DNA of 64,000 nt from [Clostridium] clostridioforme AGR2157 (lineage in GTDB: Bacteria; Bacillota; Clostridia; Lachnospirales; Lachnospiraceae), in the NCBI RefSeq assembly GCF_000424325.1, contig NZ_AUJR01000003.1, forward strand, positions 1 to 64,000, given 5' to 3'. Below are positions 46,287-63,935 of this stretch, piece after piece. Below the pieces are notes generated by a model, which had not been told where the DNA came from, made no database searches, and worked only from the letters and a program-made list of their open reading frames with translations. The translations under genes and the position numbers were made by a program. Numbering within the stretch: the stretch's first letter is position 1; each line of letters begins with the position of its first letter.

Positions 46287-48092
46287 ATGCAGGCAATGAT
46301 ACTGGCGGCAGGAATGGGTAAGCGTTTGGGAAAATACACAAGAAGCTGCACAAAGTGCATGGTAAGGGTTGGAAATGCGCGTTTAATTGACAGAATGGTA
46401 GCCGCATTAAAACAGGCCGGGATACATAAGCTCATTATGGTTGTGGGATATGAAGGTGAGCAGCTGGAAGCATATCTTCGGGAGACTGCTAAAGATATGG
46501 AACTGGTATTTATATATAATAGGGATTATCAGAAAACAAATAATATTTATTCACTGTTTCTTGCTAAATTTGAGTTGGAGAAGGATGATACGCTTCTTTT
46601 AGAATCAGATTTGATTTTTGATAAAAACATAATTTCTGAAATTGTAAAAAGTCCATATGATAATATGGTGACCGTTGCTAAGTATGAGCACTGGATGGAT
46701 GGTACTGTTGTATTGTTGGACTCTGAAAGAAATATTATAGATTTTGTCGCAAAAGCAGATTTTCGGTATGAAGAAGTCGAGGATTACTATAAGACGGTTA
46801 ATATTTACAAATTCAGTAAGGAATTTTCAAAAAAACAGTATATTCCCTTTTTAGAGGCATACATAAAAGCCTATGGTGTAAACCAATATTATGAATTAGT
46901 GCTGAAAATTTTGGCGCATGTCCAATACTCACAACTAAAGGCCTTTGTTTTGGAAGGTTACAACTGGTATGAGATTGATGACGTTCAGGATTTGCGGATT
47001 GCGGAGACGATTTTTGCTGAAGATGATAAACAGTTTCATGCATATGATAATAATTATGGCGGCTTTTGGCGGTTCCCTAAACTAAGGGATTTTTGTTATC
47101 TGGTGAATCCCTACTATCCTCCAAAGAAAATGGTGGACCATATGAGATATTTTTATGAGACACTGTTGAGAGAGTATCCTTCTGGCCTCCAGACACAGAA
47201 CTTGAATGCGGCAAGAATGTTTGGTGTCGAAGAGAATTATATATTGGTAGGAAATGGTGCAGCGGAGCTCATCAATGTACTTGGGGAGGTGCTGGAAGGA
47301 AATCTTCTGACAGTCGTACCTGTATTTAATGAATATGTTCGCTGTTTTAAGAATTGTACAGTTCACAGGCTCTATAGTTCGGAGGTTGATTTTAAAGTGG
47401 GCTCTGCCGACATTCTAAGAAGAATTGATGGAATGAATGCGGTAGCTCTCATTAATCCTGATAATCCAAGCGGCAGTTTTATTTTACAGAAGGACATGCT
47501 GAGGATTATTGATGAATGCAGGAAGAAGGATGTTCTGTGTATTATAGATGAATCTTTTGTTGATTTCGCAGATGGGGGTATCCGATATACATTATTAGAT
47601 GACGATTTGCTGCAAAAATACACCAATCTGCTGGTAATTAAAAGCATCAGCAAATCGTATGGTGTTCCAGGCCTGCGGTTAGGTATTGCAGCGTCGGCAA
47701 ACACAGAAATATTACAAAAAATGCGAAACCAGATGCCGATCTGGAATATTAATTCAATGGCAGAATACTTTCTTCAAATCCATGGGTTATATGCAAACGA
47801 TTATCTGGATGCCTGTGATAAAATTGCAGAAGAGCGGAGCCGCATGATTGCGGAGTTGGAGAAATTGAGAGGCCTGCGCGTATACCCGTCCCAGGCAAAC
47901 TACATTATGTGCTGCATTCACGGGAAGATTAATGCGAAGGATGTGGCAAATATCCTGGTAAAAGATTATAATATCCTGATTAAAGATTTGACGGCAAAAG
48001 ATGGGGTCCCGTCAGAGAAATACATTAGACTTGCAGTGAAAAACCGAAAAGAAAATGATGAGCTGATTCAGGCGTTAAAAAGTATTTTGTAA
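46287..48092 (+). CDS. Bifunctional nucleotidyltransferase-aminotransferase (LicC-like + HisC/CobD-like)
   Basis: 601 residues. The first ~240 form a nucleotidyltransferase domain (AMILAAGMGKRLGKYTRSCTK, LLESDLIFDKNII) like phosphocholine or phosphonate cytidylyltransferases. The second part (about 250-601) is a fold-type I PLP enzyme with GNGAAELINVLGEV, LINPDNPSGSF, CIIDESFVDFA and IKSISKSYGVPGLRLG (PLP Lys near 456). It resembles histidinol-phosphate aminotransferase and L-threonine-phosphate decarboxylase CobD. I infer that the PLP half prepares a phosphorylated amino compound which the first half activates as a CDP derivative for LicD. A comparable fusion with a different PLP class is known in phosphonate biosynthesis, but no PEP mutase gene is in view. 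It starts 12 bases after licD. Confidence 0.85.
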   Translation: MQAMILAAGMGKRLGKYTRSCTKCMVRVGNARLIDRMVAALKQAGIHKLIMVVGYEGEQLEAYLRETAKDMELVFIYNRDYQKTNNIYSLFLAKFELEKDDTLLLESDLIFDKNIISEIVKSPYDNMVTVAKYEHWMDGTVVLLDSERNIIDFVAKADFRYEEVEDYYKTVNIYKFSKEFSKKQYIPFLEAYIKAYGVNQYYELVLKILAHVQYSQLKAFVLEGYNWYEIDDVQDLRIAETIFAEDDKQFHAYDNNYGGFWRFPKLRDFCYLVNPYYPPKKMVDHMRYFYETLLREYPSGLQTQNLNAARMFGVEENYILVGNGAAELINVLGEVLEGNLLTVVPVFNEYVRCFKNCTVHRLYSSEVDFKVGSADILRRIDGMNAVALINPDNPSGSFILQKDMLRIIDECRKKDVLCIIDESFVDFADGGIRYTLLDDDLLQKYTNLLVIKSISKSYGVPGLRLGIAASANTEILQKMRNQMPIWNINSMAEYFLQIHGLYANDYLDACDKIAEERSRMIAELEKLRGLRVYPSQANYIMCCIHGKINAKDVANILVKDYNILIKDLTAKDGVPSEKYIRLAVKNRKENDELIQALKSIL

Positions 48093-48907: not shown

Positions 48908-50683
48908 ATGATAAAAGAATTAGAGTATCCTTTTGACAGTGCAGGGGTGCTGCGAAAAAAGAGGGCATTAAAGAAAAGATGTTTAGAGCAGCGGGAAAAT
49001 TGGCTGGAAATCAGAATTGCGGTGCTGTGTGGTTCTACGGTAGCGGATATATGTGATATACTGGAGTTGTTCCTGCTCAACGAGGGTATAAAACCGCAAT
49101 TTTATCAGTCTGAATTCGGAAAGTACTGGGAAGATGCAGTGTTTGATAATCCGGAATTAGAGCATTTTAGACCTCAGGTTATATGGATTCATACCAGCAC
49201 AAGAAATATTAATAGTATGCCGGACATCACTGACAGCGAAAATCATATCAAGGATAAATTGAAGCAGGAAGAAGATAAGCTTTTAATGATGTGGGAACAG
49301 CTTGAGAAGCGCTATGGCTGTCCAATCATCCAGAATAATTTTGAAAGGCCTCTATATCGAATCTTAGGAAATCAGGACATAGCAGATGAAGCTGGAGGCA
49401 GTAATTTTGTCTTTCGGTTAAATGATTACATATACCGTTATAAGCAATCACATGCCAACTTCTATGTTCATGATGTAGATGGAATATCTGCTTGCTTTGG
49501 ATTGCGCAGTTGGCAGGAACCAAGGTATTGGTATTTATATAAATACGCTTTGAATATAAATGCTATACCAGAATTTTCTTATAATTTATTTACTATTGTA
49601 AAATCGCTTTTTGGTAAGAATAGAAAAGTGCTTGCGTTAGATGCAGACAATACACTTTGGGGAGGAGTTATTGGAGACTGTGGCGCAGAAAATATTGAGT
49701 TGGGTGCGGAGACAGCTAGCGGACAGATGTATCTTGAATGGCAGCAATATATAAGACGGTTAAAAAAGTGTGGGATTTTACTCGCTATTGTTTCTAAAAA
49801 TGAACAGAAATCAGTTGAGGAGGGGTTAGAACATCCATCAGGTGTACTGCGTGCAAAAGATTTTGCGGTTGTTCGCAGTAACTGGGAGAATAAGGATATT
49901 AATCTGCAATATATAGCTGAGGCTCTGAACATAGGTTTGGAACAGATTGTATTTATAGATGATAATCCGGCAGAAAGAAGGTTGGTTGAAACCAATTTGC
50001 CGATGGTATCCATTGTAAATGAGGATAAGCCGGAACGGTTCATACAGGTGTTAGATGCAGCAGGATATTTTGAGTCAACAGTCCTGACAAAAGAAGACTT
50101 GAAGCGAAATGATATGTATCGTGAAAATGAAAAACGTTCCAGGTTTCAGGAAACGTTTGTGGATTATGATGATTTTCTGAAGAATCTCCAAATGAAGGCA
50201 GTTATTAAAAAGTTTGAACCTTTGTATGTAAGCCGGATTACTCAGCTGATTAATAAAACAAATCAGTTTAATTTTACAATGCTTCGCTGTACAGAGGAAG
50301 AAGTGCGTAGGATAATGCTGGATTCCAGCTATATGACGCTATATGGACAGCTGTCAGATGTGTTTGGCGATAATGGAATTGTAAGCCTGATGATAGGAGA
50401 AAAGAAGAACAGCATACTTCATATTTGTCTGTTTGTGATGAGCTGCCGTGTATTTAAACGAAATATGGAGTATGCGATGATGGATGCTGCTGTGGTGTGG
50501 TGTATGGATAACCAAATTGAAAAGATCAAGGGCTACTATATTCCTGGGGCAAAAAATCAGATATTAAAAGAAAAGTTTGCGGAGTTTGGTTTTGTGAAGC
50601 AGGACGAAGATGAGAATGGAAACAGTACCTGGGAACTGGAAATTGACCATTATCAGAATAAAAATCATGTGATTAATCTATGA
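48908..50683 (+). CDS. FkbH-like HAD-IIIC family protein (glyceryl transfer to carrier protein)
   Basis: 591 residues. The N-terminal ~230 residues form the FkbH-associated domain. The HAD core starts VLALDADNTLWGGVIGDCGA (about 240), with LAIVSKNEQKSVEE and IVFIDDNPAERRLVE. The C-terminal GNAT-like region (from INKTNQFNFTMLR) is standard for FkbH. FkbH enzymes take 1,3-bisphosphoglycerate, remove a phosphate and load glyceryl onto an acyl carrier protein. A carrier-protein gene follows (the stop overlaps an ATG; true start 50698), so this is a complete loading pair. Confidence 0.9.
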   Translation: MIKELEYPFDSAGVLRKKRALKKRCLEQRENWLEIRIAVLCGSTVADICDILELFLLNEGIKPQFYQSEFGKYWEDAVFDNPELEHFRPQVIWIHTSTRNINSMPDITDSENHIKDKLKQEEDKLLMMWEQLEKRYGCPIIQNNFERPLYRILGNQDIADEAGGSNFVFRLNDYIYRYKQSHANFYVHDVDGISACFGLRSWQEPRYWYLYKYALNINAIPEFSYNLFTIVKSLFGKNRKVLALDADNTLWGGVIGDCGAENIELGAETASGQMYLEWQQYIRRLKKCGILLAIVSKNEQKSVEEGLEHPSGVLRAKDFAVVRSNWENKDINLQYIAEALNIGLEQIVFIDDNPAERRLVETNLPMVSIVNEDKPERFIQVLDAAGYFESTVLTKEDLKRNDMYRENEKRSRFQETFVDYDDFLKNLQMKAVIKKFEPLYVSRITQLINKTNQFNFTMLRCTEEEVRRIMLDSSYMTLYGQLSDVFGDNGIVSLMIGEKKNSILHICLFVMSCRVFKRNMEYAMMDAAVVWCMDNQIEKIKGYYIPGAKNQILKEKFAEFGFVKQDEDENGNSTWELEIDHYQNKNHVINL

Positions 50684-50942: not shown

Positions 50943-51347
50943 ATGAAAATTCATCATGTGGGATATTTAACGAAGAATCTGAATAAAAGTGAATTTTTAT
51001 TTGAAAAGCTTGGTTTTATTGTGGAAAAGGAGAAAGCGTATGATGCGCTGAGAAAGATTCATATCGTTTTTATGCTTAATGGTGATTATCGGATAGAGCT
51101 GATAGAACCTGATGGGGAGGAATCATCTGTTTGGGGGTTATTAAAGAGGTATAAAAATACCCCGTATCATTTCTGTTATGAGGTAGATGATATGAATGCT
51201 GCAGTGAAAAAAATGCGGGAAGGGGGGCATATAATGCTTTCAGAACCCATGCCTGCTTCTTGTCTGGATGGTAAATTGTGCTGTTTTATGCTGCATAAGG
51301 ATATGGGGATAATTGAGTTGTGTGAATGCGGAAAATCAGCCAGCTAA
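50943..51347 (+). CDS. VOC-fold protein (methylmalonyl-CoA epimerase/glyoxalase-like)
   Basis: 134 residues with two beta-alpha-beta-beta-beta modules. The first has KIHHVGYLTKNLNKSEFLFE, with metal-ligand type His residues at the start. RIELIEPDGEES and FCYEVDDMNAAVKKM follow, then MGIIELCECG carries the last Glu ligand. It resembles epimerases acting on thioesters, so it could act on the carrier-bound glyceryl group (epimerisation or rearrangement). This is inference from the gene neighbourhood. It starts 5 bases after the carrier protein. Confidence 0.8.
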   Translation: MKIHHVGYLTKNLNKSEFLFEKLGFIVEKEKAYDALRKIHIVFMLNGDYRIELIEPDGEESSVWGLLKRYKNTPYHFCYEVDDMNAAVKKMREGGHIMLSEPMPASCLDGKLCCFMLHKDMGIIELCECGKSAS

Positions 51348-52553: not shown

Positions 52554-54665
52554 ATGGACTATCGGATTGAAAAGTTAATAAAAAGCCTTAAATATGAAAG
52601 AATTGTTGTGTATGGAACTGGTATTAATGCAGAAAGAGTAGTGGATGCATTAAGTGACAGAAATATTATAGGTATTCTTGATGGAAATATAAATTTTGGA
52701 TATTTTGATGGGATAAAGATACTAACTATTGAAGAGATGCTCCTGCAACAGCCGGAAGCAGTCATTATAGCAGCACAGCATTCCTCTACCCTATCTATAT
52801 ATAATAGAATATGTAAGACTTGCATGGAGCATCATATAAAACTGTTAGATATGTCTGGAAATGATCTATTCGATTTGGTAGATAATATTGAAAAACAAAA
52901 AGACTGTTTTGAAAAAAATATTGAGGAAATAAAACGAGAGATTGACCAGCACGAAGTAATAAGTTTTGATATATTTGATACATTAATAATGAGAAATACA
53001 TTGTTTCCGGAAGACGTGTTTTATATTGTTGAAAGCAAGGTTAGGAATAGAGGGATTGCATTATGCGATTTACGAAATAGGCGTGCTCTAGCTGAGCAAT
53101 CAATAGATTGTATCAGTCCCAACATATATCAGATATACGATGCTTACCAGAAAAGAGAGGGATTTACATCTACAATCAAACGTATATTGCTTGATTATGA
53201 ACTTTCTGTAGAAAAGGCAGTTCTAATCAGGCGGGAAGATATCGTTCAAGTGATGAATTATGCAGTTAGTAATAATAAACCTGTATATCTTATATCGGAT
53301 ATGTATCTCCCAAAGGAGCTGATTGAGGTTATTTTGAGCGAACTTGGTATTGTAGGATATCGCGATATTCTTGTCTCCTGTGATTACCATCAAACAAAGT
53401 ATACCGGTTTATATCATACATTTATGGATTTATATCCGGCAGAATCTTATTTACATATTGGTGATAACGCAGTGGCAGATGGCTTTTGCGCAAAATCCAA
53501 TGGAATGGATGTATATATTATTCAAAGCGCATTAGCATTGTTAGAGAAATCAAGTTATGGATTTATGCTTAAAAAACAGCTTTCTCTTAATGAACGTTCA
53601 ATGCTGGGCTTATTAATTGCTAAGATTTTTAACAGTCCGTTTTCACTTTATGGCAGTGACAGAAGACCATATGTAGATAGCATTAAAGATATAAGCTACC
53701 TTTATTTTGCGCCAGTGATTTTGAAAGTGATGCTGTGGCTGATGGATAAACTTTTAGAAGGGGATTATGAGAAGGTCCTTTTTTCTGCAAGAGATGGTTT
53801 TTTAATACAAGAATTATACGATTACATGCGATTAACCAGAAACGGACTTCCGGACAGTGTCTATTTTCAAGCTTCACGGGTTTTGTGTGCACGTGCCGGC
53901 TTAAGCAGTGATGCAGACATAGAATGGATGTTGAGTGCTCCATTTGACTGTTCATGGAAGGAGGTTGTGAAGGAAAGGTTCGATTTAAATGATAATGATA
54001 TGCTGGATGAACATAATTCAGAGTATAATTCTGTACTGGATTATGCAATGTCTCACAAAGATAAAATCTATAAGCGATCGAGAGAGATTCGTCAAAATTA
54101 TAATAAGTATATGAAGCTACTGGGCATTAAAGAAGGCAGAACATATGCCTTTTACGATTTTGTCTCTTGTGGTACATGTCAGTATTTTTTGAGCAATTTT
54201 GTATCATTTGATTTACAAGGGCTGTATTGCGGATACTATGACTCGGTAACAGGTGGAAAACGTAATGTCCCAATAGAAGCATTATTTGTTAATCAAAACT
54301 ATTTTCAAAAGGAAACTGCCTTTTTTAAAAGATATTTGTTGTTTGAACGCATAATGACATCAACGGCAAGTTCTGTAATTAGTATGGATACTTGTGGAAA
54401 GCCGTTATTTAGCGAAGAAAGTAGAAGTTTGCATGAACTTGATATGGTAAAAATTGCTCAAGAATCAATTAAAGATTATATAAAAAAATATATTGACTCC
54501 CTTTATGTAGATGGGAGCAGTATTGATGTAATGTTTGTTGATGCTTTGTTTGCATTATTTAGTTTGAAATATACAAACGAAAATTGTGAAGAATTTGAAC
54601 AAATTTTGTTAGTGGATGATTTTGGAAAAAATGTTTTAAAAATAACCAGGGAGGAACTACAGTAA
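52554..54665 (+). CDS. Large HAD-like protein with N-terminal Rossmann module (active-type copy)
   Basis: 703 residues. N-terminal module (about 1-100): RIVVYGTGINAERVVDALSD ... VIIAAQHSS, a Rossmann-like unit. The HAD domain (about 140-330) has VISFDIFDTLIMRNTL (both catalytic Asp present), YLISDMYLPKELIEVI and YLHIGDNAVADG. The C-terminal 370 residues have VLFSARDGFLIQELYDYM and AFYDFVSCGTCQYFL, conserved with the paralogue at 60147. Proteins of this type occur in glycan loci as predicted HAD superfamily hydrolases; substrate unknown. An intact catalytic Asp pair suggests phosphatase or phosphotransferase activity. Confidence 0.78.
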   Translation: MDYRIEKLIKSLKYERIVVYGTGINAERVVDALSDRNIIGILDGNINFGYFDGIKILTIEEMLLQQPEAVIIAAQHSSTLSIYNRICKTCMEHHIKLLDMSGNDLFDLVDNIEKQKDCFEKNIEEIKREIDQHEVISFDIFDTLIMRNTLFPEDVFYIVESKVRNRGIALCDLRNRRALAEQSIDCISPNIYQIYDAYQKREGFTSTIKRILLDYELSVEKAVLIRREDIVQVMNYAVSNNKPVYLISDMYLPKELIEVILSELGIVGYRDILVSCDYHQTKYTGLYHTFMDLYPAESYLHIGDNAVADGFCAKSNGMDVYIIQSALALLEKSSYGFMLKKQLSLNERSMLGLLIAKIFNSPFSLYGSDRRPYVDSIKDISYLYFAPVILKVMLWLMDKLLEGDYEKVLFSARDGFLIQELYDYMRLTRNGLPDSVYFQASRVLCARAGLSSDADIEWMLSAPFDCSWKEVVKERFDLNDNDMLDEHNSEYNSVLDYAMSHKDKIYKRSREIRQNYNKYMKLLGIKEGRTYAFYDFVSCGTCQYFLSNFVSFDLQGLYCGYYDSVTGGKRNVPIEALFVNQNYFQKETAFFKRYLLFERIMTSTASSVISMDTCGKPLFSEESRSLHELDMVKIAQESIKDYIKKYIDSLYVDGSSIDVMFVDALFALFSLKYTNENCEEFEQILLVDDFGKNVLKITREELQ

Positions 54666-54709
54666 GCCAAGTGCATATTGTGCTAGAATGGGAAAGGATA
54701 AAGAGATAA

Positions 54710-55132
54710 ATGAAAAGATATAATATAGGATACGTTGCAGGAGTTTTTGATTTATTTCATATTGGGCATTTAAATTTAATAAGGAGAGCAAAAGAAAACA
54801 GTGAATACTTAATAGTTGGGGTATTAACGGATGAACTAGTGATTCATTTTAAAGGAAAAGCACCATATATACCGTTCGAGGAACGTTTGGAGATTATTGG
54901 GGCATGCCGATATGTGGATAAGGTAGTAGGCGTTACATTTGATAATATTGATAAAATGTCAGCGTGGGAATTATATAAATTTGACTGTTTATTTTCGGGA
55001 GATGACTATGTGAATAACGAATCATGGATTATAGATAAGCAGAGGCTTAAACAGGTAGGCGCAGATATCCAATTTTTCCCATACACGAAGACTACTAGTT
55101 CAACGCAAATTAAAAAAATAATTGGAATATGA
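54710..55132 (+). CDS. TagD-like glycerol-3-phosphate/phosphoalcohol cytidylyltransferase
   Basis: 140 residues, close to the usual TagD length. GYVAGVFDLFHIGHLNLIRR holds the HxGH nucleotide motif; FKGKAPYIPFEERLEII is the RTxGIxTT-family context, and FPYTKTTSSTQIKKII holds the C-terminal signature in variant form. It makes a CDP-activated alcohol such as CDP-glycerol. A second cytidylyltransferase (46287) in the same operon implies two different CDP head groups. Confidence 0.88.
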   Translation: MKRYNIGYVAGVFDLFHIGHLNLIRRAKENSEYLIVGVLTDELVIHFKGKAPYIPFEERLEIIGACRYVDKVVGVTFDNIDKMSAWELYKFDCLFSGDDYVNNESWIIDKQRLKQVGADIQFFPYTKTTSSTQIKKIIGI

Positions 55133-55153
55133 TTATAGGAGGAAGTTATTTAC

Positions 55154-57520
55154 ATGATTGAGTTAAGTGTAATTGTTCCCATTTTTAAAGTAGAGAGGTA
55201 TTTAGCGCAATGTGTTGAAAGTATTTTAGGGCAATCATATAAAAATTTGGAGGTTATTTTAGTAGATGATGGCTCACCAGATAACTGTGGTGCCATGTGT
55301 GACGAATATGCTAAAAGAGATTCCAGAATAAAGGTTGTACACAAGACAAATGGAGGACTCGTATCAGCGCGAAAGGCTGGTATTGAAATAGCACGTGGGC
55401 GTTATATTACCTATGTAGATGGAGATGATTGGTTATCTGACAATACATATGAAGTATTAATGCGATATGTAGCAGAGAACAGGGCAGATATCGTCACGGC
55501 TGGTTTTATAGAGGATTTTGGAACTGAGGAGAGCAATTACATTGATACGATGAAGTCTGGGTATTATAGTGGGGAAATGTTAGATAAGTACTTATATGAA
55601 ACTATGCTTTATGATAAATCAACAGGGGATTCTGGAATCAGGCCGAATGTCTGGTCAAAAATATTTTCCAGAGAGGTGATATATGATTGTCAGATGTCTG
55701 TGAATAATCGTATAAATTATGGTGAGGATATGGCTTGCACATATCCAGCATTATTAAAGGCAGATAGTGTCTATGTGACAGATGAATGTTTATATCATTA
55801 TAGAAGAAGGGCAGATTCTATTACAACCGAAAGGAATTTGAACTATTTTGAACAGATAGGGATATTGTATAAAGAGTTGGCAAAGGTATTCTTTCAGCAT
55901 AGGAAAATTACGAATATTTTGATGAGTCAGTTAAATAGTTATATGAAATATTTGTTAAATAAGGGTGACCGCGATTTGCTAAATGGAATTTTAGAGTCCA
56001 GTCAGTCAGAAATGAAACCCTATTACTTATTTCCGTTTGATAAGATTGCAAAAGGCAGTAAAATAGTTGTTTATGGTGCGGGGGTTGTTGGGCAGGATTA
56101 TATTGCACAGATATTGAGTCGTCCATACGTGAAACTGGTGGCATGGGTAGACAAAAAGTACAAAGAATATGCGGCTAAAGGTTATGATGTTGTAGATACA
56201 TGGGAGTGCTATATACGTTCTTATGATTATATAGTTATAGCTATTCTAAAAGAGCATGTGGCTATGGAAATAAAAAAAGAGTTGATGGCGAATGGGGTAT
56301 CTGAAAGTCATATTATTTGGTCACTTCCAGTAAAGGTAAATAGAATCATGCCTAGAAAAAAGAAGATTGCATTTGCGGTACATCGCTACGGCTTAGAGGT
56401 AAATGGCGGGGCAGAATTACATTGTAGGATGCTTGCAGAACATCTAAAAGAAAAGTATGAGGTCGAAGTATTTACCTCATGTGCCAATAGTGTTGAACCT
56501 TGGGATAATTATTATCATGAAGGCTGCGAAATAATAAATGGTGTTTTGGTAAGACGGTTTAGAGTTGAACGTGAACAAAAACCAGCATTAGCAGGTCAGC
56601 TTTATCAGTTAATGATTAGAAATGAGCTTGAAGAACCGAACCAGTACTTTGTGGAAAATGGACCGTATTGTCCCGCTCTAATTGATTTTATAAAGAATCA
56701 TTATGAAGAATATCAAGCCATTATCTTTTTTTCATATGGAACATATATCTCCTCATTAGGGTTACAGACGGGATTAAATAATGGACTGTTTATACCAACG
56801 GTACATGAGTCAATATCAATACGTTCATTATCATATGAGAAAGTTTTTGAAGGAGTTCAAGGGTTTATATATAATTCTTATGAAGAGAGAGAGATGGTGA
56901 GAAGTGTATTTTCTAATTCTGATAAGAAAGAGATGGTAACCTGTGTAGGATTTGATGAACCAGACATTGATAAAATTGATAATTCCATTGCTAAGAAGTA
57001 TGGAGAATACATGATTTATGTGGGAAGAATATCGGACTCTAAAAATTGTCAGAAATTATTTGATTATTTTTTGAATTACAAGAAAAGAAACGCATCTAAA
57101 TTGAAATTAGTTTTGGTTGGGAAAGAAGATGGTGTTAAAGTTCCAATACATAAAGATATCATACATGTTGGCTTTATCAGTGATTTGGAAAAAACAGCGC
57201 TGATTAAGGGCGCAAAATTTTTGGTCAATAATTCAATTAATGAAAGCTTGTCATTAGTGATGCTGGAAAGTATGATTTTAGGGAGGCCTGTAATTGTAAA
57301 TGGAAATTGCGATGTAATGAGAGGGCAGTGCCAAAGAAGTAACGCAGGATTGTATTATAACAATTATCTGGAGTTTGAGGCGGTAATTAATTATATGCTT
57401 ACACATGATCGCGAATATGAAGCGATGTGCGAAAATGGTGTGGATTTTGTTAGAAAGAATTATACCTGGAGCGTTGTTATCAAGAATATATGCAATTTTC
57501 TTGAAACCTACAAGAAATGA
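55154..57520 (+). CDS. Bifunctional glycosyltransferase: GT2 + Rossmann module + GT4
   Basis: 788 residues. A GT2 domain (about 1-230) has ELSVIVPIFKVERYLAQCVE, VILVDDGSPDNCG and TYVDGDDWLSDN (DxD). A Rossmann-like linker (about 302-395) begins KIVVYGAGVVGQDYI and ends IKKELMANGVSESHIIW. A GT4 domain (about 400-788) has FAVHRYGLEVNGGAELHCRM, YMIYVGRISDSKNCQKLFDY and SINESLSLVMLESMILGRPV. The two catalytic domains probably add consecutive sugars. The linker repeats the module found in neighbouring proteins. It overlaps the next frame by four bases. Confidence 0.87.
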   Translation: MIELSVIVPIFKVERYLAQCVESILGQSYKNLEVILVDDGSPDNCGAMCDEYAKRDSRIKVVHKTNGGLVSARKAGIEIARGRYITYVDGDDWLSDNTYEVLMRYVAENRADIVTAGFIEDFGTEESNYIDTMKSGYYSGEMLDKYLYETMLYDKSTGDSGIRPNVWSKIFSREVIYDCQMSVNNRINYGEDMACTYPALLKADSVYVTDECLYHYRRRADSITTERNLNYFEQIGILYKELAKVFFQHRKITNILMSQLNSYMKYLLNKGDRDLLNGILESSQSEMKPYYLFPFDKIAKGSKIVVYGAGVVGQDYIAQILSRPYVKLVAWVDKKYKEYAAKGYDVVDTWECYIRSYDYIVIAILKEHVAMEIKKELMANGVSESHIIWSLPVKVNRIMPRKKKIAFAVHRYGLEVNGGAELHCRMLAEHLKEKYEVEVFTSCANSVEPWDNYYHEGCEIINGVLVRRFRVEREQKPALAGQLYQLMIRNELEEPNQYFVENGPYCPALIDFIKNHYEEYQAIIFFSYGTYISSLGLQTGLNNGLFIPTVHESISIRSLSYEKVFEGVQGFIYNSYEEREMVRSVFSNSDKKEMVTCVGFDEPDIDKIDNSIAKKYGEYMIYVGRISDSKNCQKLFDYFLNYKKRNASKLKLVLVGKEDGVKVPIHKDIIHVGFISDLEKTALIKGAKFLVNNSINESLSLVMLESMILGRPVIVNGNCDVMRGQCQRSNAGLYYNNYLEFEAVINYMLTHDREYEAMCENGVDFVRKNYTWSVVIKNICNFLETYKK

Positions 57521-57528
57521 GGTACGAG

Positions 57529-57966
57529 ATGAGTGACATAAACATTGAAAATATTATGAATGAAATCAGAGCGAATATTGTGCCTGATGCAGAACAGTTT
57601 GATGTAGTACAGATGCAAAATGACTCAATGTCAGCTTATCATAGGAATATATTAGGTAGGCTCGAGAATTCTAATGAAGTTGTCGTATTTGGAGTTGGGC
57701 GTTATGGGAAGATGATTATGAAGGCATTAAAAGCTGGAGGAATTGAAGGAATTAAGTGCTTTTGCGATAATAATCCTAATATTGCGGGATTAAATATTGA
57801 GGGACTTCCGATTGTTAGGCCGGAAGAGGCCTTTAAAAAATACCCGGATGCTGTATTCGTTATTACAGCAATAAATTACCCTGTCGAAATTACTGCCCAA
57901 CTGTTAAAAATGGGGGTAGATGTAGAAAAGATACTTTTTTATAATTTTGCTAGAAGTGGTTTATAA
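57529..57966 (+). CDS. Stand-alone Rossmann-module protein with docking-type N-terminus
   Basis: 145 residues. The N-terminal helix MSDINIENIMNEIRANIVPD shares the I-x-x-I-M-x-E-I/L-R motif with the protein at 40036. The rest is one Rossmann-like module: EVVVFGVGRYGKMIMKALKA, then IKCFCDNNPNIAGLNIEGLP and DAVFVITAINYPVEITAQLL. No second catalytic domain is present. The start at 57529 has GAGGT 5-6 bases upstream; ATG 57517, overlapping the previous stop, is the alternative. Its presence between two multidomain transferases that hold the same module as linker suggests binding of a shared ligand or partner. Confidence 0.75.
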   Translation: MSDINIENIMNEIRANIVPDAEQFDVVQMQNDSMSAYHRNILGRLENSNEVVVFGVGRYGKMIMKALKAGGIEGIKCFCDNNPNIAGLNIEGLPIVRPEEAFKKYPDAVFVITAINYPVEITAQLLKMGVDVEKILFYNFARSGL

Positions 57967-57988
57967 ATTGATGTTGAGGAAAAAAACG

Positions 57989-60142
57989 ATGAATATTTTA
58001 GTGGCGATAAATAGGCAATATATTTCAAAATTAGAGGTTCTATTGGAATCTTTATTCACAAACAATTCTGTTGAAACAAATGTATATTTACTACATTCAG
58101 AATTAGATGATACTGACGTAATGAGATTACAAGACTTTTGTAAGAAGAAAACTGATGATTTAAATATACATAAAAAGCTGAACGCGATATTAGTAGAAGG
58201 CAGTATATTTTGTGATGTGAAAATTGATATTCCAGGTTTGAGCATAGAAACGTATTATCGATTGCTCGCGGCCGAGATTTTACCTCCTGATATTGATAGG
58301 ATATTGTATTTAGATGCGGATATAATTGTGGATGGTTCATTGGAGGAATTTTATAATATAGATTTTTGCGGAAATGCTGCTGCTGTGTGTGCGGATACCA
58401 TTGCAAATTTTAAAGAGAATATACGAAGTAGAATTGGTTTGTCAAAGGAAGGAACTTACTTCAACGCTGGTGTTATTTTGATGAATATGAGTGCCTGGCG
58501 GAAGGTAGTAACACGTCAAAAAGTAATAGAAATACTGCAGAGTGGTAAGAGCTTTCCGTTTCACGACCAAGATATATTGAATATATTATTAGATAAAAAG
58601 CTTGTATATGTAAATGCGTTTGTGTATAATTTCGAGGTGGTGCTGGCAAGAGATTATTCTGAGTATTATAGAAATATTGTATTGCCTTTAAAGCAAAAAC
58701 CCATTATTTATCATTATGCTGGTGACCATAAGGCGAAACCCTGGAATATTGGATATAACTGTGCTGATTTTAATAAGTATTATTGGAAATATGCAGGAGC
58801 CCTAATTAGCCAAAGGGAAGGTTTAGTGGATTTAAACGGGCAAGTGGAAGAATATAAAAGGGAATTAGAGTATCTACAAGCCAGAGTTGACAAATTTAAA
58901 CGTTATTTTGATATTACAAATCACTGGTTGGAATTAAAAAACAATGGAAAAAGTATCGGGGATTACTTTCAGAGAAATAACATAGTTCATATTGTAATTT
59001 ATGGTTGGGGAGAATTAGGACATAGATTACATGAGGAGTTGAAGAAAAGTGAAATCTGCGTTGATTATGTTATTGATAGCAATAAAAAAAGAATAGCCGA
59101 TATTTCAATAAAATGCCTGTCTGATGATATATTGCCCGAAACAGATGCAGTTGTGGTAACACCGATTATGGATTTTGAAACGGTATCGAATGAATTAAAA
59201 CAAAGATATTCATGCCCGATTATATCAATAGAAGAGGTAATCAGCTCTTTTGAAAAATCAATCTCAAAAAATCATGAAAAGTTTGTATCCGTAATTGTAC
59301 CCATTTATAATGGAACAAGTTATGTCGAGGGCATTATAAAAATGCTTGAACGTAATTATAGTATTGACACTGAGATGAAGATAGAACTTATAATTGTAAA
59401 TGATAAACCAGATGATTTTGTTGATCTGTCTTCTATATTGACAAAAGTCTTAGATGTTCAAGTGATAAATCATCAAGAAAATAAGGGTATACATGAATCG
59501 CGGGTAGATGGCCTGAGAGCTGCTTCTGGAAGATATATTGTATTTTTGGATCAAGATGATATTTTAGAGGACAATTATTTACATAGCCAGTTAGCGCAAA
59601 TTCAGGAAGGGGATGCAGTTGTATGTAATGGTTATACAACGGATAGGGAATACAGAGGCCTGATTTATCCTCATTTCGGTAGAATAGAGTTTTGCGTGGA
59701 CGAATGGTCTGCACTTGTATGCGATAATAGGATTATATCTCCAGGGCAGGTAATGATAAAAAAAACAGCGATACCAGAGTGCTGGAAACGCTATATTTTG
59801 AAAAAGAATGGAGTAGACGACTATTTCCTGTGGATTAGCATGTTTGAAAAGAGAGCTAAGTTTATTATTAATGAAGATAAGATTTTTACTCATACATTTT
59901 GTGGGAATAATTTGTCAAATAACTATGCTAAAATGAAAGAGGCAATGGAAGAGTTTGTTGAAGTATTATCGAAATCAACAGATATTTTTGATTCGTTAAC
60001 CTTAAGAGACTTTTTTTGTAAAATATATTCGTATCATATCATGGAGCTCAAATGGGGATGGAATTTATGGGAAGAGGACTTGGAAGGTTTTGAAGAAGTA
60101 CACAAATTAGTTACTGATATGCGCGAGCAAATAAATAGGTAG
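57989..60142 (+). CDS. Bifunctional glycosyltransferase: GT8 + Rossmann module + GT2
   Basis: 717 residues. The GT8 domain (about 1-285) has MNILVAINRQYISKLEVLLE, RILYLDADIIVDGS (DxD about 109-111), YFNAGVILMNMSAWR and HYAGDHKAKPW. A coiled linker precedes the Rossmann module (about 333-425; HIVIYGWGELGHRLHEELKK). The GT2 domain (from about 431) has SVIVPIYNGTSYVEGIIKML and YIVFLDQDDILEDN. The start at 57989 has GAGGA upstream; the in-frame ATG at 57947 would overlap the previous gene with no Shine-Dalgarno. Two sugars, one retaining (GT8) and one inverting (GT2), are probably added. Confidence 0.86.
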   Translation: MNILVAINRQYISKLEVLLESLFTNNSVETNVYLLHSELDDTDVMRLQDFCKKKTDDLNIHKKLNAILVEGSIFCDVKIDIPGLSIETYYRLLAAEILPPDIDRILYLDADIIVDGSLEEFYNIDFCGNAAAVCADTIANFKENIRSRIGLSKEGTYFNAGVILMNMSAWRKVVTRQKVIEILQSGKSFPFHDQDILNILLDKKLVYVNAFVYNFEVVLARDYSEYYRNIVLPLKQKPIIYHYAGDHKAKPWNIGYNCADFNKYYWKYAGALISQREGLVDLNGQVEEYKRELEYLQARVDKFKRYFDITNHWLELKNNGKSIGDYFQRNNIVHIVIYGWGELGHRLHEELKKSEICVDYVIDSNKKRIADISIKCLSDDILPETDAVVVTPIMDFETVSNELKQRYSCPIISIEEVISSFEKSISKNHEKFVSVIVPIYNGTSYVEGIIKMLERNYSIDTEMKIELIIVNDKPDDFVDLSSILTKVLDVQVINHQENKGIHESRVDGLRAASGRYIVFLDQDDILEDNYLHSQLAQIQEGDAVVCNGYTTDREYRGLIYPHFGRIEFCVDEWSALVCDNRIISPGQVMIKKTAIPECWKRYILKKNGVDDYFLWISMFEKRAKFIINEDKIFTHTFCGNNLSNNYAKMKEAMEEFVEVLSKSTDIFDSLTLRDFFCKIYSYHIMELKWGWNLWEEDLEGFEEVHKLVTDMREQINR

Positions 60143-60146
60143 GAAG

Positions 60147-62042
60147 ATGACGAGACAGCAGAGTATATTAGATAATTTTCATAAAAATTTTCATAAGTAT
60201 TTGGGAGAGAAAATACTAATTTATGGAAAAGGGGCATATGCAAGGTTAATCATTGAGAATTTTAAAGAATATTCGTTTACGGGTATTATAGATAGACTGG
60301 ATCTTGAGGGGAGTTACTATGGTATTCCGGTTTTAAAGCATGATGAGGTTGTCCAATCAGGCTCGAGGGTTATGATAATTGCAGCGAGTTTGAATAATAC
60401 GGAGATTATAAGGAAACGGGTAGGAAATTTTTGCATAAAGAATCATATAAAGTTGTATTCGGTGGATGGAAGAATACTAAATGTTGATGATTGTGTGATC
60501 CCTGTAAGGGACCATGAAAGTCACTGGATATCACAAAAAAAACTTCGAGAAAGTATTGATGAGCATGATATAGTTTGTTTTGATTTACAAACAATATTAA
60601 TGGAGAATATTGGTAAAAATGGTTTTTTTTATACTGTTCGAAAAGTACTGATAGATGATTTGAAATGGGCGGCAAATCAAGATAAAAAGGTCGTTTTGTG
60701 TATAAAGTCGAGAAGTTCAATAGAGTACAAATTCTTTTGTAGAACATACAAAGATTTGTGCGACAAATTGGTTTTATGTGAAGGACAGGGAGATGAGCTT
60801 CTTGTTAGCCTGCAGAATTTAAGGAGGAGCAGTACTAATAAAGATACATTTTTATTTATTGGCAGTGTGGGAGAATGTTTTGCAAAAGATGCAGATTTTT
60901 CTGTCTTTCGTATATATTCGCCTATTGAAATGCTTCTTAATAGCTCTTATAGATATTTATATAAAGATACTCAATCTAAATTAGAGATGGTTTATTTACA
61001 GGTAATTATTAATCACATTTTTTCTTCTCCATATGCATTGGAAGGTACAAATGGACTTGTCCGAATTCAGAGTGCACATGATATAGGTTATGTTTTTTTA
61101 GGTCCTATAGTGCTTGATTTTATGTTTTGGTTTATTTCTCAATTGAAAAAAAATAAAATAAAAAACGTAATTTTTTCAGCAAGAGATGGGTATGTTATAC
61201 AAAAATTATATTTAGAAATTATTAAAAGTTTGGAACTGAAGGATTTACCGGGGTCTATATATTTTTATACATCTAGACGAGTATGTAATATGATTCGCAT
61301 AAATAATGTATCGGACATCAACAGTTTATCAAAGGAGTATTTTTGTGGAAATGTTAAAGAAATGTTGATAAATAGGTTCATGTTAAAGGAGGAAAATTTG
61401 TATGAAAGAGAAGTTGACGAATACAGGTCTGATTTTGAGTATATAGAAAGTTTTAGTTCGGAGATTTTAAATAAAGCTAATGTTGTTAAAAAAGGGTATT
61501 TAAAATATATAGAGGCATTGGGGGTAGATGCCAACGAAAATACAGCTTTTTTTGACTTATTTGCATCGGGAACATGCCAGTTAGCGCTGTCTAAACTATG
61601 TAATAAAAATTTTAAAGGTTTATACTTTTCAAGATTTATTACTGATGATAATGAAAAAAATGAGTTAGATATTGAGAGTTATTTGGAGCCAGATTCTTTT
61701 ATGGAAGACCACTCTTTATTTATAGAAAGTATTTTGACATCCTTAGAACCAACATTGTCAGATATTGGAAGTGATGGTGAAATTTTATTGGGAAACGAGA
61801 CAAGAAATAAAGAGGAATTAAAATACGTTCAGAATGCACAGGAGGGTATAATGTTATTTGCTAAAGATGCATTAAAACGATTGGACGGTGTACCGGATAT
61901 AGAAAGAGATTATGCTCGTGATATATTTGGCATGCTTATAAGTCAATATACTAATATTGAAAATAATACCTTTAAAAATATAATTATAAGAGATGAAATA
62001 TTAAATAGAAATCAATATTTAGGCGATTTTTATAAATATTGA
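60147..62042 (+). CDS. Large HAD-like paralogue with degenerate HAD site
   Basis: 631 residues, paralogue of 52554-54665. The N-terminal Rossmann module (KILIYGKGAYARLIIENFKE ... VMIIAASLNN) is kept. In the HAD region the motif reads IVCFDLQTILMEN, so the second Asp is lost. The lysine motif and the GDxxxxD motif are also unrecognisable (FLFIGSVGECFAKDA). The C-terminal part is conserved (VIFSARDGYVIQKLYLEII, AFFDLFASGTCQLALSK). I infer a non-catalytic HAD with a still useful C-terminal domain. It starts four bases after the GT8-GT2 gene. Confidence 0.78.
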   Translation: MTRQQSILDNFHKNFHKYLGEKILIYGKGAYARLIIENFKEYSFTGIIDRLDLEGSYYGIPVLKHDEVVQSGSRVMIIAASLNNTEIIRKRVGNFCIKNHIKLYSVDGRILNVDDCVIPVRDHESHWISQKKLRESIDEHDIVCFDLQTILMENIGKNGFFYTVRKVLIDDLKWAANQDKKVVLCIKSRSSIEYKFFCRTYKDLCDKLVLCEGQGDELLVSLQNLRRSSTNKDTFLFIGSVGECFAKDADFSVFRIYSPIEMLLNSSYRYLYKDTQSKLEMVYLQVIINHIFSSPYALEGTNGLVRIQSAHDIGYVFLGPIVLDFMFWFISQLKKNKIKNVIFSARDGYVIQKLYLEIIKSLELKDLPGSIYFYTSRRVCNMIRINNVSDINSLSKEYFCGNVKEMLINRFMLKEENLYEREVDEYRSDFEYIESFSSEILNKANVVKKGYLKYIEALGVDANENTAFFDLFASGTCQLALSKLCNKNFKGLYFSRFITDDNEKNELDIESYLEPDSFMEDHSLFIESILTSLEPTLSDIGSDGEILLGNETRNKEELKYVQNAQEGIMLFAKDALKRLDGVPDIERDYARDIFGMLISQYTNIENNTFKNIIIRDEILNRNQYLGDFYKY

Positions 62043-62243
62043 TAATAGGCACAGTAGTACCGACTGACAGTTTAAAATACAAGACGTAAGAATCAAGCTA
62101 GTAAAGCTGTATCCGGTTATAGTTTACAAACTCACATGATACAGTACGAATCAAGATATTGTTTTGATAATCTTGGCTTGCTGTTATGTATTGTGCTTGT
62201 TATATCGCAGATAGAATATAAAATGACTTTTGGAGGAGATGAA

Positions 62244-63935
62244 ATGGCAGTTCTTCATCAAGAATATTATAAAGGAACAGGAAAAGGGCAAGCAAAAATC
62301 CAGGTTAATCGGGATATTCGTTCCTATATTGAGGATAATCCTAGTGGAGACTTTTCACAAGTGCTGGCTATGGATGCTAGATGGCAAGTATTCTATCATT
62401 TATCGGATATGAGAGCATCAATCTTAAATTGGTATGAATGGAGTAAGAATGGGTCAATCTTAGAGATTGGTGGGGAATTCGGTGCGTTAACAGGACTACT
62501 TTGTAAGCATGGTAAGCATGTGACAACAATTGAATATGGATTGTTTAAAGCAGAAACTATCTGTAAACGCCATTCGAATAGAGAAAATTTGGATGTATAT
62601 GCTGGCAATTTGTTTGATATGGAATTTGCAGAAAAATTTGATTATATTGTGATGATTGGCAGTTTGGAACGTCAATGTGGAGGGAGTAATTCCCTTGAAG
62701 ATTATCATAGATATATGAAGAAGATTGTGACATTGCTTAAACCAAATGGAAAGCTTTTGGCAGCTGTGGAAAACCGATATGGACTTCGTTACTTCTGTGG
62801 TGAAGTGGAAACCTACACGGGAAAGCCATATGCTGGAATTAATCATTATCCGCAAGGGGCTAGAGGTTATACATTTAGCAAAAAGGAACTATATGATATA
62901 ATGTGCAGTGCAGGATTTAAAGCTGTGAAGTTTTACTATCCACTGCCAGATTATAAATTGCCTCAAATGATTTATTCAGATGAATTTTTACCTCAAAAGG
63001 ATTTAGGGGAGCGTTTGTTATTTTATCATCTCAATAAAAATACATTGGTGGCTTCGGAAAATAATTTGTATGAGGATTTGATTGATAATCATGTATTTCC
63101 ATTTTTTGCAAATTCGTATCTTACGGAGTGTAGCCTAGATGGGAAATATAGTACTACCATATTTGCAGCAGTTACAACTGATAGGGGAAAATATCATGCT
63201 ATGTCTACGAGTGTATTTTATAGTTCAGGAGGGGAGGAGCGTAGAGTAAGAAAGAGGGCGTTGTACCGAGAGGGGATATCAAATGTACGAGCAGTTTATG
63301 ATAATATGATGGAGCTAAAGAAGCATGGAATTACTATTGTTCCTCATTATTTGGAAAATGATGATATAATTATGCCGTTTATACCTAAAATAACATGTTC
63401 AGATTATCTTAGAAAGTTAGTAATGTTAGGGGATGGAGATGCATTCGAATTAATATTTGAATTAATATATCAAAATATACTAAAATCTTCAGAACTAGTT
63501 CCAGCGGAAGAAAATAAGTTTCCTGAAGTGGGGGGAAACGTAGTGGAATATGGGCCTATCCTTAAGAGGTGCTATGTGGATATGGTTCCATTTAATTGTT
63601 TTTATGTAAATGGAAAGCTACTATATTTTGATCAGGAATTTGTTATGGAAGATTATCCAGCTTTATACCCGATGTATAGGGCATTAATGTATACATATTA
63701 TTTTATACCAGATGCAGAGAAACTTGTTCCCATACATGAGATGAAACGGCGATATGGATTAATTGAATTGTGGGATGTTTTCCAAAAAGAGGAAGATAGG
63801 TTTGTGTCGGACAATCGTAGGCATGAGGTATATCAAAATTTTTATAAGTGGATTGGTGATGATTTAACTCGGATAAACTGTAATGCAGAGTTATTATTGA
63901 AATCAGAATTTTTTCATGAATGTGATGCAGATTGA
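62244..63935 (+). CDS. SAM-dependent methyltransferase with kinase-like C-terminal part
   Basis: 563 residues. The methyltransferase domain (about 60-240) has the SAM motif SILEIGGEFGALTGLLCKHG, then VTTIEYGLFKAETICKRH and DYIVMIGSLERQCGG, LLKPNGKLLAAVENRYGLRY. The C-terminal ~250 residues include MVPFNCFYVNGKLLYFDQEF, similar to the Asp-x-x-Pro-x-Asn ... Phe-Asp-Gln-Glu element of small-molecule kinase folds in capping enzymes. Methyltransferase-kinase pairs of this sort (WbdD-like) end the chain of ABC-exported O-antigens, so a chain-capping role is possible. The start at 62244 has TGGAGGAGAT; the in-frame ATG at 62136 is preceded by no such site. The 200-base gap before the gene shows no gene; a promoter is not clear. 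Confidence 0.82.
   Translation: MAVLHQEYYKGTGKGQAKIQVNRDIRSYIEDNPSGDFSQVLAMDARWQVFYHLSDMRASILNWYEWSKNGSILEIGGEFGALTGLLCKHGKHVTTIEYGLFKAETICKRHSNRENLDVYAGNLFDMEFAEKFDYIVMIGSLERQCGGSNSLEDYHRYMKKIVTLLKPNGKLLAAVENRYGLRYFCGEVETYTGKPYAGINHYPQGARGYTFSKKELYDIMCSAGFKAVKFYYPLPDYKLPQMIYSDEFLPQKDLGERLLFYHLNKNTLVASENNLYEDLIDNHVFPFFANSYLTECSLDGKYSTTIFAAVTTDRGKYHAMSTSVFYSSGGEERRVRKRALYREGISNVRAVYDNMMELKKHGITIVPHYLENDDIIMPFIPKITCSDYLRKLVMLGDGDAFELIFELIYQNILKSSELVPAEENKFPEVGGNVVEYGPILKRCYVDMVPFNCFYVNGKLLYFDQEFVMEDYPALYPMYRALMYTYYFIPDAEKLVPIHEMKRRYGLIELWDVFQKEEDRFVSDNRRHEVYQNFYKWIGDDLTRINCNAELLLKSEFFHECDAD

Follow-up and report, generated by a model that had tools for sequence, protein, structure and literature searches.

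The closest described counterparts of the domain considered here include PF13727 (CoA_binding_3), the accessory domain of large phosphoglycosyl transferases (WbaP) and of PglF/FlaA1-type dehydratases. In passages of the WbaP report, this domain makes most of the dimer contacts, uridine mono-, di- and triphosphate (UMP, UDP and UTP) are considered potential stabilisers, UMP inhibits WbaP, and the authors assign a nucleotide-sensing regulatory role to the domain (PMC10942596). For a myxobacterial relative, models described in excerpts of a second report suggest that a response regulator aids the formation of the active dimer, with contacts in this same domain (PMC12802240). In this study, we analysed positions 1-64,000 of contig NZ_AUJR01000003.1 from [Clostridium] clostridioforme AGR2157 (this whole stretch of 64,000 nucleotides is called the window), and we describe a module carried by five proteins of one operon at 52554..62042. 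We regard it as a small Rossmann domain of the CoA_binding_3/PglD_N/Rex superfamily, located at either end of, or between, the catalytic domains of soluble glycan enzymes. The module and the WbaP domain have the Rossmann fold in common, and PF13727 gave no hit at E<=1 in eight scanned proteins. On the one hand, PF13727 in WbaP is part of one membrane protein and lies behind a transmembrane bundle, as passages of its description state (PMC10942596). On the other hand, the module occurs on many enzymes of one locus and also alone, and no such bundle precedes it: M1 and M5 start at residues ~10-16 and M3 at ~46, and M2, M4 and M6 follow GT2, GT8 and LicD domains, respectively, as judged from these positions with no transmembrane predictor run.

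The genes and modules are as follows, with E values from leave-out profiles, whose rows came only from other genomes (none from the window or from the stretches L008 and L009) and were never more than 35% identical to the target.

52554..54665, + strand: gene 1, 703 residues; module M1, HAD phosphatase (PRP-like), and ribofuranosyltransferase-like region (gPRT), putatively dependent on phosphoribosyl pyrophosphate (PRPP).
52581..52889, + strand: module M1, N-terminal in gene 1, residues ~10-112; E 1.1e-11.
55154..57520, + strand: gene 2, 788 residues; GT2 domain (PF00535, 1.1e-36), module M2 and GT4 domain (PF00534, 3.3e-12).
56039..56353, + strand: module M2, between the GT2 and GT4 domains, residues ~296-400; E 4.5e-13.
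57517..57966, + strand: gene 3, 149 residues; N-terminal extension of ~45 residues and stand-alone module; its L008 relative is 63% identical.
57652..57963, + strand: module M3, stand-alone, residues ~46-149; E 1.5e-23; fold predicted.
57947..60142, + strand: gene 4, 731 residues; GT8 domain (PF01501, 3e-38), module M4 and GT2 domain (PF00535, 1.2e-20).
58970..59266, + strand: module M4, between the GT8 and GT2 domains, residues ~342-440; E 2.4e-11.
60147..62042, + strand: gene 5, 631 residues; module M5, degenerate HAD region and gPRT-like region; a relative of gene 1, 28% identical.
60192..60491, + strand: module M5, N-terminal in gene 5, residues ~16-115; E 2.3e-11.
Contig C2:65641-68283, 1.6 kb past the window: sixth module gene, 880 residues; LicD domain, module M6 and calcineurin-like phosphoesterase (metallophosphatase); E 2e-21.

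The original prediction placed five copies of one Rossmann-like unit in this operon, and all five lie where it had put them, namely at the N-terminus (52554, 60147), between domains (55154, gene 4) and as a stand-alone protein (gene 3). Two gene starts need correction, as 57529 is a later ATG of the 57517 frame and 57989 a later start of the 57947 gene, and the modules themselves stand. The unit comprises ~100 residues instead of the proposed ~90, as one more helix and a fifth strand follow the V-x-I/V-x-A/T strand. The homology of all copies was recovered by the leave-out profiles, which matched all six own-genome modules at E 2.4e-11 to 1.5e-23 among 387 open reading frames (the window plus seven own-genome stretches, one gene counted twice). 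Chance similarity is thereby ruled out. A search of the whole genome (4.94 Mb) with a profile that includes its targets gave six matches at E<1e-22 and the next at E 0.012; the six lie within 14.3 kb at C2:52,581-66,840. The wider profile A5 returned the same six (E<=5.1e-13) and three weaker matches at 2.2e-7 to 6.2e-6. The six modules are pairwise 15-30% identical, indicating that they did not arise by recent duplication, as had been proposed from their divergence; together with the within-locus identity comparison below, this rules out recent tandem duplication. We also rejected the module as a copy of the accessory region of the local phosphoglycosyl transferase (PGT), since the profile scored the 35521 protein only at E 250.

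In terms of structure, fold prediction was run on M1 and M3, and the two predicted folds agree and are of Rossmann type, as the prediction had supposed for all five modules. Their fold matches include CAC2185 (2g6t), FlaA1-type 3nkl, Rex, CoA-binding domains, VioB, the accessory domains of WbaP, PglD-type structures, KijD1 and MtmC. The profile of the whole-genome search with targets included, a 13-row alignment of modules from the window, L008 (a relative keeping genes 1-3 in order) and L009 (the stretch with the LicD gene just past the window), has only G, G and D as invariant columns. Among 122 modules, the first loop glycine and the D/E ending strand 2 are kept together in 100, and the second glycine as well in 83. 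When 92 bare modules were compared with Pfam at E<=0.01, the matches were to PglD_N (33), C2185-like_N (13), CoA_binding (13) and Methyltransf_14 (10), and each dehydrogenase NAD-binding family matched only 1-2 of the 92. A comparison with PHROGs gave nothing informative.

The claim of five copies in one operon was correct in number and too narrow in extent, since a sixth copy lies past the window and many other genomes carry the module. With the 57517 protein as query, matches were found in 21 of 195 genomes at E<=1e-5, and profile A1 matched 28 of 96 genomes at the same threshold (own genome included in both). Among the other genomes, 15 had two or more A1 matches, and in 14 of these a single contig had at least two of them within 30 kb. 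We also used even draws, searched at E<=1e-11; their tallies are lower bounds, and some of their single matches in frames of ~200-260 residues may be Rex-type proteins. The module was present in at least 30 of 293 genomes from the class and in at least 26 of 299 from the phylum (own included). In the phylum draw, at least 15 other genomes had two or more matches, and at least 14 had two within 20 kb.

In related Bacillota, the module forms clusters of 3-13 matches on unrelated enzymes, together with stand-alone copies; the densest, in genome G058, has 13 matches in 18.4 kb. We examined 22 stretches, namely the twenty loci L081-L100 selected for module matches, the window and L008, some overlapping by 1-2 kb. 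Because of this selection, gene fractions in L081-L100 are not population rates. Inside the module spans, 115 of 182 called genes carry the module. The partners of 107 module proteins (E<=1e-4) were GT2 (26), radical SAM (16), TylF (5), MptE-like (5) and TagF-type (4), and more rarely WbsX, GT8, GT4 and FkbM (3 each), RgpF (2) and others; methyltransferases and ribofuranosyltransferase-like enzymes also carry the module in the clusters. Such unrelated partners across module loci bear out the proposed tie to a set of glycan enzymes instead of one enzyme type. In placement, 62 of the 122 modules are N-terminal, 46 C-terminal, 9 stand-alone (module proteins of fewer than 190 residues) and 5 internal. 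At L008:1-1569 on the minus strand, a protein that we read as GT2-like has two tandem modules at its N-terminus.

To distinguish locus from enzyme family, we used GT2 genes from ten genomes selected for module loci, where 150 of 205 GT2 matches were counted; genes of one locus are not independent in these counts. Among the matches listed, 26 GT2 genes have two or more other module genes within 12 kb, and 15 of these 26 carry the module, compared with 0 of the 124 others, indicating that the locus and not the enzyme family predicts it. Modules equally common in unrelated enzymes elsewhere, which would have spoken against the original prediction, were thus not found among these 124 genes, and the module as a general glycosyltransferase feature is rejected on the same count. 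The own genome has 20 GT2 matches, of which two fall in module proteins; both of these belong to this operon. Modules on unrelated partners are 19.3% identical within a locus and 18.8% between loci, a difference reached by 41 of 1000 label shuffles, and modules with related partners are more alike (21-24%). Accordingly, the modules are old; in part they were inherited together with their enzymes, and those of one locus have not become homogenised.

Considering that the WbaP domain is described as sensing nucleotides and making dimer contacts, and that the myxobacterial models place dimer contacts there too, we interpret the module as a domain for nucleotide sensing and/or pairing, distributed across a soluble pathway. 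The retention of the glycine and acidic positions in most copies favours a ligand, and the fold matches together with the findings on WbaP make a nucleotide-type ligand shared by the enzymes plausible. Our preferred reading, held tentatively and at somewhat less than an even chance, is a non-catalytic domain that binds a nucleotide-type ligand, pairs, and regulates or gathers the enzymes of one locus; by analogy with WbaP and from the fold, the module may thus combine ligand binding, pairing and regulation. The ligand could be UMP, cytidine monophosphate (CMP) or UDP released by the transferases of the pathway, or a nucleotide-linked substrate. If modules pair with one another, the enzymes of one locus would be gathered and regulated jointly, and the stand-alone copy (57517) would act as a sensor subunit or as an unattached partner. 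The five proteins may form a physical complex, as the original prediction suggested.

Several results weigh against this reading. In the leave-out profiles, three other proteins score nearly as well as M1, M4 and M5, namely one of Rex type (3.5e-11), one whose C-terminus is C-methyltransferase-like (4e-10) and one that resembles FlaA1 (4e-9); over all these profiles, the three relatives have E 3.1e-11 to 7e-9, their labels being our reading. As M1, M4 and M5 are poorly separated from Rex-type domains, the module represents one branch within a broad Rossmann superfamily and does not form a sharply bounded family. The acidic residue is absent in 18 of 122 modules, and 11 of the 26 listed GT2 genes inside module loci lack the module. 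Within-locus similarity is barely raised, so that the sequences give little sign of mutual recognition. Moreover, each of the GT2, GT8, LicD and TagF domains should possess a donor site of its own, so that no second nucleotide site is needed. In a subtype of the module (L081, L082, L086, L087, L092 and others), V followed by S/T replaces the strand-2 acidic residue, V accounting for 9% of the 122; this subtype possibly has another ligand.

An alternative that we consider rather unlikely is that the modules serve purely for docking, pairing mutually or through a common scaffold, for example the stand-alone copy, to form one cytosolic complex, with the ligand pocket as a relic. The unrelated partners, the occurrence at both ends of proteins and in the middle, the stand-alone copies and the dimer contacts described in passages on WbaP (PMC10942596) are consistent with docking. 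Docking alone, however, would not require the glycine loop and the acidic residue, both of which are mostly kept, and the weak rise in within-locus similarity argues against it as well. It is improbable that the module is a substrate handle by which each enzyme grips the nucleotide moiety of a glycan intermediate linked to a nucleotide. This is the role ascribed to PglD_N and to the C-terminal domain of sugar C-methyltransferases, but GT2, TagF and gPRT enzymes use a nucleotide or PRPP only in the donor, which is expected to bind in their own domain, and there is no indication of a shared nucleotide-linked intermediate.

We also considered whether the module recognises the glycosylated protein, that is, flagellin or its chaperone, and brings the enzymes there. 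Among 33 recorded loci with at least two modules, 20 have a flagellin gene no more than 45 kb away, compared with at most 3.8 expected, and 11 have one within 15 kb, compared with 1.6 expected, where the expected value ignores contig ends. Among the listed matches of nine genomes, 11 of 14 GT2 genes with the module lie within 45 kb of flagellin, compared with 25 of 116 without it, genes of one locus again not being independent. In Paenibacillus cellulosilyticus, a 711-residue relative of gene 1 (52554) that also has the module is neighboured by two Maf-family proteins, a Polysacc_synt_2 dehydratase and NeuB, with SecA further on. These results are consistent with acceptor recruitment, but 13 of the 33 loci are not near flagellin, that of the window among them (at least 5 of the 13 are on contigs shorter than 35 kb). 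The own genome has three flagellin matches, on contigs C6 and C13 and none on the 203-kb contig C2 holding the operon, and none of its GT2 genes on C6 carries the module. Flagellin was present in all 30 tested genomes with module loci and in 248 of 299 genomes of the phylum draw; there, it was found in 26 of 26 module-bearing genomes and 222 of 273 others (p 0.011), which is a weak signal because flagellin is common in the phylum. Considering also that a Rossmann pocket would be an odd protein-binding site, we judge this explanation decidedly improbable. Least probable of all is the absence of any common role, i.e. a frequent accessory Rossmann domain acquired independently and merely common in one kind of variable locus, since the locus predicts the module among the listed GT2 genes (15/26 vs 0/124), even though the modules are very divergent, the superfamily is broad, and the greater likeness on homologous partners (21-24% vs 19%) indicates partial inheritance with the enzyme.

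Two genes of the same run lack the module:

54710..55132, + strand: cytidylyltransferase of TagD/RfaE-II type (PF01467, E 3.1e-18; TIGR01518, 78.9 bits, under the cut-off of 165.4).
62136..63935, + strand: methyltransferase-containing protein (PF13489, 4.7e-8), with relatives in two selected loci; the long C-terminal part that follows residue ~264 gave no Pfam match at E<=1.

The HAD part of gene 1 has an intact phosphatase motif, FDIFDT with GDN. In gene 5 this part starts with FDLQT and lacks the ~70 residues that follow in gene 1, and phmmer against PDB gave no match for gene 5 at E<=0.1; the gene 5 protein is possibly a transferase unable to dephosphorylate its own product, or a pseudo-enzyme subunit. 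The pattern of the N-terminal helix motif of 57517, sought in the other proteins examined, matched only the L008 relative. Past the window, C2:65641-70465 (L009:5641-10465) holds the LicD-module-phosphoesterase gene, then GDPD, then a cytidylyltransferase-Gfo/Idh/MocA fusion (TagD-Gfo) with a 719-bit relative in L090.

Genes for the PGT and for the ABC exporter (Wzm and Wzt) lie 10-17 kb upstream of the operon. Accordingly, this operon may direct the synthesis of a surface polysaccharide and not of a flagellin glycan. In loci chosen for their modules, 12 of the 16 genes from 45450 to TagD-Gfo have a relative at E<=1e-10, the exceptions being 48104, 48908, 50943 and GDPD. The seven genes between 33756 and 41566, both included, comprise three GT4 genes, which have weak relatives in these loci, and the genes for the polymerase-like protein, the PGT, Wzm and Wzt, which have none; for the PGT, this holds at E<=1e-5 in L081-L100. 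The module region is therefore nearer in content to those loci than the export block is, bearing in mind that they were picked for modules. The LicD gene 45450 has close relatives in four selected module loci (273-401 bits), and next to it, at 46287-48092, an NTP-transferase is fused to a class I/II aminotransferase; this pair suggests an activated amino-alcohol phosphate substituent. An FkbH-type protein (48908-50683) and then a glyoxalase-family protein (50943-51347) also lie inside the glycan cluster.

The sharing of modules in clusters that are often near flagellin genes suggests one common way to sense or assemble such pathways. In the broadest form of our interpretation, one class of glycan loci in Bacillota, in many cases islands for cytosolic flagellin glycosylation, would mark most enzymes of any family with one nucleotide-binding Rossmann domain and keep free copies besides, as a pathway-wide sensing or assembly code through which new enzymes plug into one complex or control signal; we consider this possible, though doubtful on balance. 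If one domain unites up to 13 matches on unrelated enzymes, soluble glycan pathways would be gathered or controlled by it, or islands would swap enzymes without loss of function. Both matters bear on flagellin and surface glycosylation alike, and the 57517 protein offers a direct handle on them. The module may also be a sequence marker for protein-glycosylation islands, and may help to assign unannotated genes for radical SAM proteins, methyltransferases and phosphotransferases to such islands. In the stretches L081-L100, radical SAM is the second commonest partner kind (16 of the 107).

In comparison with known families, the commonest Pfam match of bare modules is PglD_N (PF17836), the N-terminal domain of sugar acetyltransferases. 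In the window, however, M2, M3 and M5 score 14.3, 19.0 and 14.7 bits, all under the cut-off of 23.4, and M1 and M4 have no hit; in PglD_N enzymes a left-handed beta-helix acetyltransferase domain follows, and the five module proteins have no such Pfam match. Methyltransf_14 (PF08484), the C-terminal domain of sugar C-methyltransferases, reaches 23.8 bits with 57517 (cut-off 23.5) and 21.9 with trimmed M3, with no hit for M1, M2, M4 and M5, and the five proteins are without a methyltransferase domain. C2185-like_N (PF22674) has the fold of the 2g6t N-terminal domain matched by the module, but only M2 has a hit among the window modules, at 14.8 bits, under the cut-off of 27; 2g6t, which we take to be the uncharacterised CAC2185 protein of Clostridium acetobutylicum, gives no function. 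The module also matches the NAD-binding Rossmann domain of the Rex redox sensor, but its proteins show no DNA-binding domain in their Pfam hits, and the best NCBIfam Rex score is 24.0 bits (57517) against a cut-off of 130. The catalytic part of gene 1 matches the gPRT-PRP ribofuranosyltransferases (Bcs3 of Haemophilus type b; Klebsiella O4/O7), with the fold of the two-domain enzyme 7shg. Such enzymes join a transferase and a phosphatase domain, as stated in passages of their description (PMC11231755), and gene 1 is alike; genes 1 and 5 differ in the added N-terminal module, and gene 5 in its degenerate phosphatase part.

As for known loci, the module loci of relatives are often near flagellin, as in the flagellin glycosylation islands of Bacillota (Maf/Pse type; C. 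difficile Type A), and part of the gene content of the window recurs in the selected loci. Unlike those islands, the operon lies near PGT and Wzm/Wzt genes on a contig without flagellin. The word 'Rossmann' is absent from the main text of the C. difficile Type A paper (PMC10714395), and in a search of open-access literature none of the titles and abstract openings listed describes one domain across the enzymes of a glycan locus. In summary, the fold and the superfamily of the module are known, and what appears to be new is its deployment across a whole pathway.

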